The translations under genes and the position numbers were made by a program. The notes under the pieces were generated by a model, which made no database searches, had not been told where the DNA came from, and saw only the letters and a program-made list of their open reading frames with translations. Below are positions 40,015-44,401 of a stretch of DNA of 49,716 bases, piece after piece; within the stretch, counting starts at the first letter, position 1; every line of letters starts with the position of its first letter. The DNA is from Bifidobacterium breve (GTDB lineage: Bacteria > Cyanobacteriota > Cyanobacteriia > PCC-6307 > Cyanobiaceae), in assembly GCA_943325005.2 (NCBI GenBank), contig CALPNT020000003.1, positions 1-49,716 of the forward strand, written 5' to 3'.

Positions 40015-40515
40015 ATGAAAGTCCAGGCGCAGTGGCAATGCATCAGCGGCTGTGGCGCCTGTTGCCGGCTCGATCCAGAACTGCGGGGTGAAGCCCTCGA
40101 GGCCCTCGATCTGCAGCAGCAGCAGACCTACCTGGCGATGGTGGGCGCTGACGGCTGGTGCCTTCACTTCGATACGGGCGCTCGTCGCTGCCGGATCTAC
40201 GACCAGCGCCCCGACTTCTGTCGGGTGGACAACCTGTTGGGCCTGTTTACCGCAAGCAGCCGCGTCAGCCCCGCCGCCGCTTTCGACTCAGCCAGCAACT
40301 CGAAGTCCCCGGCGGATGTGGACAGCCAGCCAGCCGCCGACGCCTTCAGCCAGGTGACTGGCCACCTGCAGGACCGGAACGATCGGGACGAGCTGGCGAT
40401 TGCTTGCTGCCGCCAACAGATTCGCAGTGAGTGGGGAGGCCGTGGCAAGGTGATGAAGCGTTTCAATAACGCCATTCGTCACACCATTCGCCAAAGCATC
40501 CGCCAAAGACGATGA
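40015..40515 (+). CDS. YkgJ-family cysteine cluster protein
   Basis: 166 residues. The Cys cluster [15 protein letters not shown] opens the protein, followed by [22 protein letters not shown] and a late [10 protein letters not shown]. The arrangement matches YkgJ/UPF0153 proteins, thought to hold zinc or an iron-sulfur cluster. A non-conserved Ala/Ser/Asp-rich stretch lies at about 78-110. Its stop overlaps the start of the first GDT1 gene (ATGA), so the three following genes may form one unit concerned with metals. Confidence 0.88.
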
Positions 40516-40919
40516 GTGAGCTTCCCGATCCGCTCAGCCCGTCCTCGCAGGGCGAGCAAGCCGGCGAACTAGGGACTCAGGCCCAAGCCGATTCAGCTGC
40601 CGCTTCAGCCGGCAGCTGGGGAGCCGTGTTCCTGTCCACCGCCACCACGGTGTTTCTGGCTGAGCTGGGCGATAAAACCCAACTGGCGGCCCTGTTGCTG
40701 TCCGCCGAATCGGGCAGGCCCGGCGTCGTCTTTGTCGGGGCGTCCCTGGCACTGATCTGCTCCAGCCTGGTGGGCGTGCTGCTGGGACGCTGGCTTTCGA
40801 GCGTGATGGCCCCCGAGCAACTGGAACGGGCCGCCGGGCTGCTGATGGTGGCTCTCGGCCTCTGGCTCGGCCGTCAGGCCGTGCTCCAGTTCTCGCCCTT
40901 GCACCTGGCCCTCAGCTGA
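40512..40919 (+). CDS. GDT1/TMEM165-family transporter, first half-size protein
   Basis: 135 residues. About 35 soluble residues precede the membrane part (WGAVFLSTATTVFLAELGDK). The family motif E-x-G-D-K-T is AELGDKTQLA, followed by two more hydrophobic helices. GDT1 proteins (Mnx in Synechocystis) normally carry two such repeats in one chain and export manganese or calcium into the thylakoid lumen or periplasm. Here each repeat is a separate gene, and the two proteins probably pair. Confidence 0.88.
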   Translation: MSELPDPLSPSSQGEQAGELGTQAQADSAAASAGSWGAVFLSTATTVFLAELGDKTQLAALLLSAESGRPGVVFVGASLALICSSLVGVLLGRWLSSVMAPEQLERAAGLLMVALGLWLGRQAVLQFSPLHLALS

Positions 40920-40932
40920 CCTCCCTGCCGCC

Positions 40933-41292
40933 ATGCTTGCTCTTCTGGCCTCCACCTTCGTCACCGTGTTCCTGGCGGAACTAGGGGATAAGACCCAACT
41001 GGCCATCGTCAGCATCAGTGGCACCTCCAACCGCCCCGGGGCAGTCTTCGCCGGCAGCTCCTTTGCCCTGGTGCTGGCTAGCCTGGTGGGGGCTGCCGCC
41101 GGCGGCTCCCTCTCGAGCCTGGTGCCCACCGACAGCCTGCAGCTGGCGGCAGCGGCGGGCTTTCTGATCATCGGCACCCGGCTGATCCTGCGTGCCAACA
41201 AGGCTGGCGAGGCCGCTGGCGTTGCGGTGCCATCGGCTGCAACCACAGCGCCCGCCGACAGCGACAACAACGGGGCACCCACCGATCCCTAA
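40933..41292 (+). CDS. GDT1/TMEM165-family transporter, second half-size protein
   Basis: 119 residues from ATG 40933, 13 bp after the first half. It begins directly with the membrane helix LLASTFVTVFLAELGDKTQL, containing the second E-x-G-D-K-T motif, then helices around AGSSFALVLASLVGAAAGG and LQLAAAAGFLIIGTRLIL. A short polar, Ala/Pro-rich tail follows. It is expected to combine with the product of the preceding gene to make a complete cation transporter. Overlapping stop and a TAAAGT hexamer precede the next gene. Confidence 0.88.
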   Translation: MLALLASTFVTVFLAELGDKTQLAIVSISGTSNRPGAVFAGSSFALVLASLVGAAAGGSLSSLVPTDSLQLAAAAGFLIIGTRLILRANKAGEAAGVAVPSAATTAPADSDNNGAPTDP

Positions 41293-41459: not shown

Positions 41460-43760
41460 ATGAAGTTCACGGTCGCCGATCTGCTCGACCAGCTCTCCAC
41501 TGACGAATGCCTGCAGATCAGCAAGCTGGAGAAAGCCCTCGGCCTGTCCACCAAAACCGACAAGGACCAGCTGCGGATCGGCCTTGACGCGATGGTGCGG
41601 CTTGATCTGGTGAGCGAGAAGGACACCGGTCTGCTGCGCCATGACAATCCGGAGCTGATCTCCGCCAGGCTGCGCTGTTCCAGCAAAGGCTTCTGCTTCG
41701 CCCTGCGGGACGATGGCGGCGAGGACATCTATATCCGGGATCACCAGCTCAACCACGCCTGGAACGGTGACCGCGTGCTGGTGCGCATCACTCGCGAAGG
41801 AGGGCGCCGTCGCTCTCCGGAAGGCGGTGTGCAGTGCATTTTGCAACGCAAAACCTCCAGCCTGCTGGCCCAGGTGGAGCAACAGGAGGAACGCCTGCTG
41901 GCCATCCCTCTCGACGATCGGCTGCTGACCACCGTCGAATTGCCGGCCGCCGATTCGGTTCACCTCGACCCGGCGCAGGAGTCGGTGGTGGAAGTGCAGA
42001 TCGACCAGTTTCCCGTCGGCCAGTTCGGTCCCCTGGGCCATGTCGCCCGCCGCTTGCCGGTGCGCGGTGGCGAAGCGGCAGATCTTGATCTGCTGCTGAC
42101 CAAACATCTGCTGCACGATCGCTCTCCAGCCCCGAAAACCACCCTCAAAACCCCGCAGGACAAAGGGCGCACCGACCTCACAGCCCAGCCGGCCCTGTTG
42201 CTGGAGTGCTGGTCTGGGGAGGCTGCCCCGATCTTGCCGGCCCTCTGGCTCGAAGAACTGGAGCAAGGTCGTTGGCGCCTTTGGGTCCACAGTGCCAGCG
42301 TTGCCGAACGCTTTGCCAGCGGTGGCGCCCTGGACAGTTGGATGCGCGACCAGAGCGATGCGATCGCCACCGGACGGGCCTGGCTGCCTTTGCTGAGTGC
42401 TCCGCTCGCCAAAGCGGCAGCCTTTGAGGTGGGCAAGGCGCAGGACGCGATCTCCGTCGCCCTCGAACTGGATGCAGAGGGTGGCCTGGAGCACTACCGC
42501 TTCTGTCTGAGCCGGATCCGGCCCGCCGCCAGGGTGCCCCAGGCCGCTTTCGAGGCCCTGGCCGAGCGCAAGCCCAAGGCGCGTACCGTGCCGGCGGCTC
42601 TCAAGGCCCTCAAGGATCAGCTCCCCCTGCTGGAGCATCTGGTGGCTCTGGCGGCCTTGTTGCGGCAGCGGCGACTTGCCGCCGGTTCCATCGACCTCAA
42701 TCTGCCTGTACCACCGCTGGAGCAGCTCGGCGATCTGCAGGTACCCGTCCCCGACGCCCCGCGCCAGGGCTGGATGGTGGAACGGCCAGAGGCAGATGTT
42801 TCAGAGGTGCTGCGCGAAGCCGTGCTGATGGCCCATCGAGGCCTGGGACGCCACCTGGCGGCCCTGCGTCTGCCAGCTCTTTTTGCCGTCAACCCCGCGG
42901 CTGATGCAGCCGAGATCAATGAAGTGGCCAAGGCCGCCTTGGCCCTTGAAATTCCCCTGGAGCTCTCGGTCGAGGGCAATGCCAGCGCCGCCGAGCTGGC
43001 GGCCGCCTTCGCCGCCACCGATCGCCAACGGGCGCTGCAACAACAACTGCGGGACAGCCTCAAACCAGCTCTCTATGCCAATGAGGCTGGTCCCCATGCA
43101 TTGGCAGGCGAAACCGAGGCCTTTGCTCCCTGGACCTGCCCTGCTCTCCACTACGCCGACCTCTGGAACCAGCAGCTGCTGGTCACCCTGTTGAGTGAAG
43201 GCAAGGACCGTCCCACCGTGCGCCATAAGACGAGTGCTGACATCGCCAGTGACAGTTGTCACGGCATGATCGACTGGTCGCTGCTAGCTCCCAGCCAGCT
43301 GGCCCCCTATGAGCAGGCTCTCCAGCACGGCCTTGCCCAGCGCTTGAACAGCCGTCAGGGGTTGTTGCAGGAATTTCAGGACGATCTGCTGGCCATGGCC
43401 CAGGCCCGCCATACCGAACCGCTGGTCGGCCAGGTTCTGACCGGCGTGATCAGCGGCGTGCAGAGCTACGGCTTCTTCGTGGAGGTGCCGCCTTCCAACG
43501 TGGAGGGGCTGGTGCACGTGAGCTCGCTCAAGGACGACTGGTACGAGTACCGATCACGCCAGAATCGGCTGGTGGGCAGGAAGTTCCGGCGCACCTTCAT
43601 GGTCGGCGATAGCGTGGAGGTGGAGATCCAGAAGGTGGACGCGCTGCGTCATCAGATCGATCTGGCGGTGGTGCTGCCGGAGTCCAGCGACGAAGCCATG
43701 GAGGCCGATTCCGAGGCCGATTCCGAGCCAGATCCCGAGTCCGAACCTGAGGCGGACTGA
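41460..43760 (+). CDS. RNase II/R-family (RNB) protein with degenerate catalytic centre
   Basis: 766 residues from ATG 41460 ([12 protein letters not shown]). A winged-helix and cold-shock-like region ([20 protein letters not shown]) is followed by a long RNB-like part, recognised by [44 protein letters not shown] and [15 protein letters not shown]-terminal S1 domain begins near residue 656 ([15 protein letters not shown]). The ID-x-x-x-A-x-D-x-DDA motif expected just before GRWRL is missing, and the SPIRRY arginines read CPALHY near residue 560. I infer an RNA-binding protein without hydrolytic activity. Synechocystis Zam is a related cyanobacterial protein. An acidic Glu/Asp-rich tail ends it. 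Confidence 0.8.
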
Positions 43761-43768
43761 GTGCCGTG

Positions 43769-44401
43769 ATGCGCGATTCAGATCCCGTGGTCCTGGCCGT
43801 GTCCGGGGCCTCAGCCCAACCCCTGGCCCAACGGGCGTTGCAGTTGCTGCTCGAGGCCGGTCACCGGGTTGATCTGGTCACCAGTCGAGGCGCGATCGGT
43901 GTTTGGCAGGCCGAACTGGGCCTGCGGGTGCCCTCGGAACCCGAGGCCCAGGAGGCTTTCTGGCGGCAACGCTGCGCCTGCCACAGCGGCGAGCTGCGCT
44001 GCCATCGCTGGAACGATCAGGCTGCCGCCATTGCCAGTGGCAGCTATGCCACTCGGGGGATGGTGATCCTGCCGGCGAGCATGGGAACGGTCGGTCGCAT
44101 TGCCTCGGGCGTGGCCCTCGATCTGATCGAACGGGCAGCAGACGTGCACCTCAAGGAGCGCCGGCCTCTGGTGATCGCCCCCCGTGAACTGCCCTGGAAT
44201 CTGGTGCATCTGCGCAATCTCACCACCCTTGCCGAAGCTGGGGCCCGGATTGCACCACCGGTGCCGGCTTGGTATCACCAACCACGCAGCATCGAGGAGA
44301 TGGTGGATTTTCTGGTGATCCGGGTATTCGACAGCCTTGGCCTTGAGCTCGGCCACCTGAACCGTTGGCAGGGTCCCCCCCAGCGGCCATCCTCACCCTG
44401 A
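43769..44401 (+). CDS. ubiX: Flavin prenyltransferase (UbiX/Pad1 family)
   Basis: 210 residues from ATG 43769; the GTG just before it (43766) is equally possible. The flavin-binding start is [18 protein letters not shown]; later blocks are [40 protein letters not shown] and [20 protein letters not shown], all UbiX hallmarks. The enzyme makes prenylated FMN, the cofactor of UbiD decarboxylases; in cyanobacteria this supports plastoquinone head-group synthesis. Its 3' end overlaps the next reading frame by 37 bp. Confidence 0.94.

Follow-up and report, generated by a model that had tools for sequence, protein, structure and literature searches.

The gene at positions 41460-43760 of the window (the whole stretch of DNA that was analysed, 49,716 nucleotides) almost certainly encodes an ortholog of the cyanobacterial protein Zam (Sll1910 family) and not a canonical nuclease. 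The structural model shows a complete RNase R fold from which the catalytic residues have disappeared. Taken as a whole mechanism, with a probability of roughly 0.55, Zam would be a redox-controlled, non-catalytic regulator binding RNA or RNase E. On a large sample, the analysis confirms that the exoribonuclease label often given to this protein, which nearly all sampled Cyanobacteriia carry, cannot be taken for granted.

Thomas et al. 2022 already described Zam proteins as a clade of their own with degenerate active sites (PMC9145284), so the main point of the initial annotation, an RNase II/R homologue that has lost its active site, was correct but mostly not new. What goes beyond that paper are the new motifs in the emptied site, the reduced Rnb, the occurrence of Zam in phycobilisome-poor genomes and the ubiX-like neighbour; its main text makes no mention of Prochlorococcus, picocyanobacteria, ubiX or gene neighbourhood.

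Gene, domains and predicted fold

The features of the locus are as follows.

41460..43760, + strand: zam coding sequence, 766 aa from the ATG at 41460; RNase II/R family without catalytic residues
41652..41849, + strand: first cold-shock/OB domain (CSD1), about residues 65-130; Pfam OB_RNB
41676-41678 and 41694-41696, + strand: codons of C73 and C79, within CSD1
41850..42059, + strand: second cold-shock domain, about residues 131-200; strands in the model, position approximate
42168..43196, + strand: RNB domain, residues 237-579, pseudo-nuclease; Pfam
42195..42242, + strand: former DxDDA loop, residues 246-261, from the alignment; W251, P257, L259, P260 and A261 family-conserved
43137..43154, + strand: former SPIRRY motif, now CPALHY, residues 560-565, inside the conserved APWCCPxLHYADxWNQ
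43422..43667, + strand: S1 RNA-binding domain, residues 655-736; Pfam; with CSD1 the most constrained part
43766..44401, + strand: predicted UbiX-type (flavin prenyltransferase) flavoprotein, directly 3' of zam; Pfam Flavoprotein 2.3e-37

Pfam and the structural model revealed the domain order of the Zam family, i.e., cold-shock domains, RNB and S1, with E-values of 1.8e-19 (OB_RNB), 8.7e-08 (CSD2), 6e-42 (RNB) and 8.7e-12 (S1), the RNB match being nearly full length (profile positions 1-325 of 326). The best NCBIfam match was RNase R (TIGR02063) at 199 bits, below its cut-off of 598. In a tree with long-branch warnings, the window protein grouped with other cyanobacterial Zam sequences and not with Rnb or E. 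coli RNase R (split support 94).

The AlphaFold2 model, built from 51 sequences, had a mean pLDDT of 87 and a pTM of 0.82. RNase R was its best match in Foldseek, and VIA Z values of 37.4 against 8cdu, 35.9 against E. coli RNase R (5xgu), over 601 aligned residues, and 30.4 against the yeast pseudonuclease Ssd1 (7am1) were obtained.

Within Cyanobiaceae the gene order is largely conserved, comprising recJ, a CxxCxxCC protein, two GDT1 halves, zam, the ubiX-like gene, two small genes, acsF and tldD; recJ and acsF were named from sequence and context, UbiX by size and context, and the other neighbours by Pfam. The GDT1 halves of the window are two adjacent single-repeat cation antiporter genes at 40512-40919 and 40933-41292. 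A ubiX-like gene lies 3' of zam on the same strand, usually within ~100 bases, in 36 of the 65 non-Cyanobiaceae loci; among the other loci, several cover too little sequence to show whether one is there. It directly follows zam across many families (loci L083-L192), and in L166 DUF2996 and acsF follow as well. A link of zam to quinone or chlorophyll synthesis via these neighbours is suggestive only.

Loss of the active site within and beyond Cyanobiaceae

Alignment with B. subtilis RNase R placed VTIDGADAKDLDDAV opposite a degenerate stretch of the window Zam and SPIRRY opposite CPALHY, bearing out the loss of DxDDA and the SPIRRY replacement described in the initial annotation; the degeneration covers the catalytic TIDGADAKDLDDA and the RNB motif TIDGxDAxDxDDA. 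According to motif spacing, the four metal-binding Asp positions of RNase R correspond to E249, P257, L259 and P260, where motif spacing and alignment were used together and the automatic alignment inside the former loop is ambiguous by a few residues. The Glu at the first position is found in only 43 of 120 relatives. The RNA-clamping Tyr is replaced by A303 and the SPIRRY arginines, a criterion for RNase R, are missing; E453, the Glu in the ExMxLAN helix, is retained.

The degenerate state is common to all 120 aligned Cyanobiaceae sequences. Pairwise omega (dN/dS) was 0.05-0.15 over the whole protein, 0.05-0.17 in RNB and 0.00-0.05 in CSD1 and S1 for most pairs, with several up to 0.15. The fixed state of the site in 120 sequences together with this constraint argues against chance or sequencing error as its origin. 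Pfam, the model and dN/dS agree with the further claim that the cold-shock and S1 parts were kept under selection. One frameshifted copy (L077) was left out of the Cyanobiaceae set; in this metagenome-assembled genome zam is broken into two overlapping frames, probably by an assembly frameshift.

The emptied site is itself conserved in Cyanobiaceae as the motifs W..xxAPxLPA and APWCCPxLHYADxWNQ. Among the 120 sequences, the residues of the former acidic loop are retained in 115 (W251), 117 (P257), 112 (L259), 108 (P260) and 111 (A261) cases, and those of the second motif in 116 (W558), 108 (H564), 116 (Y565), 120 (N570) and 120 (Q571). From this conservation, we suggest that the pocket may have been put to a new use or may be needed structurally.

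For the distribution of the loss, 185 Zam sequences were compared, namely the 120 from Cyanobiaceae, of which some share an organism, plus 65 that represent 30 further families of Cyanobacteriia. None of the 185 keeps all four acids. The Cyanobiaceae proteins keep none (72) or one (48), and the others keep three (13), two (23), one (17) or none (12), the loop itself being shortened in families f13, f16 and f22. In a tree calculated without the columns of the site, many of the forms that keep two or three acids branched off close to the Zam root, and at least 20 changes in acid number were implied; this is a quick tree with long-branch warnings, in which the deep branch order is unsure. The branch leading to Cyanobiaceae Zam has a length of 1.03, indicating fast evolution. 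The loss is thus no picocyanobacterial event, erosion of the acids being seen in Zam proteins across the whole of Cyanobacteriia. A loss confined to picocyanobacteria was rejected, since none of the 65 non-Cyanobiaceae proteins keeps four acids.

The least eroded Zam proteins, which belong to other lineages, score 565-580 bits for TIGR02063, just below the cut-off of 598, and we infer from these scores that Zam may be the former RNase R of cyanobacteria.

Thomas et al. found Zam in every cyanobacterial genome searched (PMC9145284). In the present sample it is not quite universal within Cyanobacteriia: in two f32 genomes (G088 and G098, one a single 4.2 Mb contig) and in the fragmented assemblies G058 and G003 no Zam was found, the only match lying in the Rnb gene. 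Genomes outside Cyanobacteriia in the phylum sample gave only partial RNB-core matches or none. Among plasmids, the only matches were to distant rnr genes.

Proposed function and the second RNB protein

In the preferred reading, Zam, a descendant of RNase R whose exonuclease catalysis was lost, would act as a non-catalytic adaptor binding RNA and/or RNase E and tuning RNA turnover. A disulfide between C73 and C79 in the RNA-contact loop of CSD1 would serve as a redox switch, tying this action to photosynthetic electron flow. Such a redox-switched binder acting via RNase E is a published hypothesis and, by analogy, fits the window Zam.

Two redox-active cysteines, C73 and C79, are located in CSD1 of Zam, and deletion of zam or exchange of either cysteine to Ser results in less phycocyanin and an altered photosystem ratio; Zam was thereby reported to be required for normal photosynthesis (PMC9145284). 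Effects of the deletion on pigmentation, on the photosystem ratio and on tolerance of acetazolamide are published for PCC 6803 and PCC 7002 only; the redox behaviour together with the deletion phenotype was established in Synechococcus PCC 7002 (PMC9145284). Anabaena Alr1240, identified as Zam by Thomas et al. (PMC9145284), binds and stimulates RNase E and is reported to degrade RNA (review PMC10989914). It counts against the mechanism that the RNase E link rests on this protein, which may represent a less eroded Zam that is still active. Purified PCC 7002 Zam showed no nuclease activity, in line with the mechanism; RNA binding was not detected either, which speaks against it, and the authors caution because of aggregation (PMC9145284). 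As to the new RNA-binding role proposed in the initial annotation, it is plausible that Zam serves RNA metabolism without catalysis, in agreement with the published RNase E model; a role in translation is unsupported.

In the window Zam, both cysteines, here predicted to be redox-active, are present as RCSSKGFCF in the L12 loop of CSD1. The pair occurs in 115 of 120 Cyanobiaceae proteins (Ser at 73 in four, at 79 in one) and in 58 of the 65 others, including one from family f13 (G013) that has both cysteines and no acids. The Ser variants, along with family f16, where the pair is missing, imply that the disulfide is not universal. One or both of these cysteines, called invariant in the literature, are missing in L170, L174-L176 and L191 (f16) as well as in L072, L117, L127, L150, L151 and L162.

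The source genome carries a second RNB gene on another contig (G000:C15), adjoining rpsR and rpmG, with DIDD and SPIRRY intact. It belongs to the Rnb type common in cyanobacteria (compare Sll1290), and a genome without an active RNB enzyme was rejected on its intact motifs. The Rnb frame is shortened to 398-502 aa in 25 of the 76 Cyanobiaceae genomes (loci L194-L204 and L211-L213 among them), compared with ~670 aa or more in the others listed whole. The reduced form retains the acidic motif and SPxRR and lacks the N-terminal part, which in other Rnb proteins consists of CSD-like, winged-helix and HTH domains that Pfam recognises poorly within Cyanobiaceae; the order pheT-rpmG-rpsR-rnb is kept in the loci checked. 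A frameshift or a displaced upstream part was rejected, given this gene order and the lack of any N-terminal match in the DNA upstream of the short genes. By the Zam tree, the reduction probably arose at least twice, in g76 and in the Prochlorococcus-type clade. One genome (L190, G011) has a third, short RNB-like frame of 471 aa, which keeps SPLRRY and aligns without the acidic motif.

It is conceivable, if unlikely, that Zam and the active Rnb work as a pair in which Zam binds the RNA that Rnb cuts, at least in lineages whose Rnb was pared down to the catalytic core. The reduced Rnb, with its catalytic motifs kept, would suit this division: Pfam found RNB only in it, and OB, CSD2 and S1 in Zam of the two reduced-Rnb genomes scanned. 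However, Zam is also present alongside full-length Rnb, and the reduction may be plain genome streamlining. Slightly less probable again is the combined proposal that the picocyanobacterial pocket was rebuilt as a binding or contact site (W251, P257-x-LPA and APWCCPxLHYADxWNQ) and that Prochlorococcus Zam acts in trans with the stripped-down Rnb, RNA binding and cutting being divided between two proteins.

One or two phycobilisome-family genes were found in 18 short-Rnb genomes, compared with at least nine in the others tested. Prochlorococcus-type genomes without the phycobilisome gene set still have Zam, which argues that its core function is not phycobilisome-specific. The losses of Rnb domains and phycobilisomes are separate, since in G119 and G180 the Rnb is short but the phycobilisome set complete.

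We consider it improbable that Zam binds the 30S subunit in the manner of RNase R and takes part in translation or in the quality control of ribosomes; among the structural matches, RNase R on a 30S degradation intermediate ranked first, and Zam retains S1 and cold-shock domains, but any RNase R fold gives that match. There is only a slim chance that some nuclease activity persists or was regained through other metal ligands. E249 at the first Asp position, the kept E453, the three of four acids kept in other lineages and the reported activity of Alr1240 would speak for it, whereas in the window Zam three of the four acids are Pro, Leu and Pro, E249 is not family-conserved and, apart from the D/E-rich position 255, the two motif stretches hold no newly conserved acid. 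A decaying pseudogene, to which the missing catalytic residues and the fast evolution on the branch to Cyanobiaceae might point, was rejected by an omega of 0.05-0.15, with open frames through the family and conserved gene order.

Comparison with known systems

Zam of Synechocystis (Sll1910) and of Synechococcus PCC 7002 (A1543) resembles the window Zam in domain order, degenerate RNB site, the numbering of the cysteine pair (73 and 79) and the intact Rnb encoded alongside; the window protein differs as a Cyanobiaceae member whose former site holds a lineage-specific pair of conserved motifs. Cyanobacterial Rnb (Sll1290) occurs in the same genomes and shares the RNB domain but, unlike Zam, has an intact site and the N-terminal domains CSD_RNase_II, wH and HTH. 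With RNase R (VacB), a bacterial 3'-5' exoribonuclease, the window Zam has in common the fold over ~600 residues and the best NCBIfam match, TIGR02063, from which it departs in its missing catalytic acids and arginines and in its score (199 against a cut-off of 598 bits).

The fungal pseudonucleases Ssd1/Sts5 are similar to Zam in having an RNase II fold, lost acids and retained cold-shock domains, and their catalytic loss was repeated in several lineages (PMC8097288; PMC8934651). They differ in being eukaryotic, in their independent origin from Dis3L2 and in their link to Cbk1 kinase sites, and a redox cysteine pair is not reported in the literature consulted. In several Zam lineages the acids eroded stepwise, with S1 and the cysteines of CSD1 largely preserved, which is the order proposed for fungal Ssd1.
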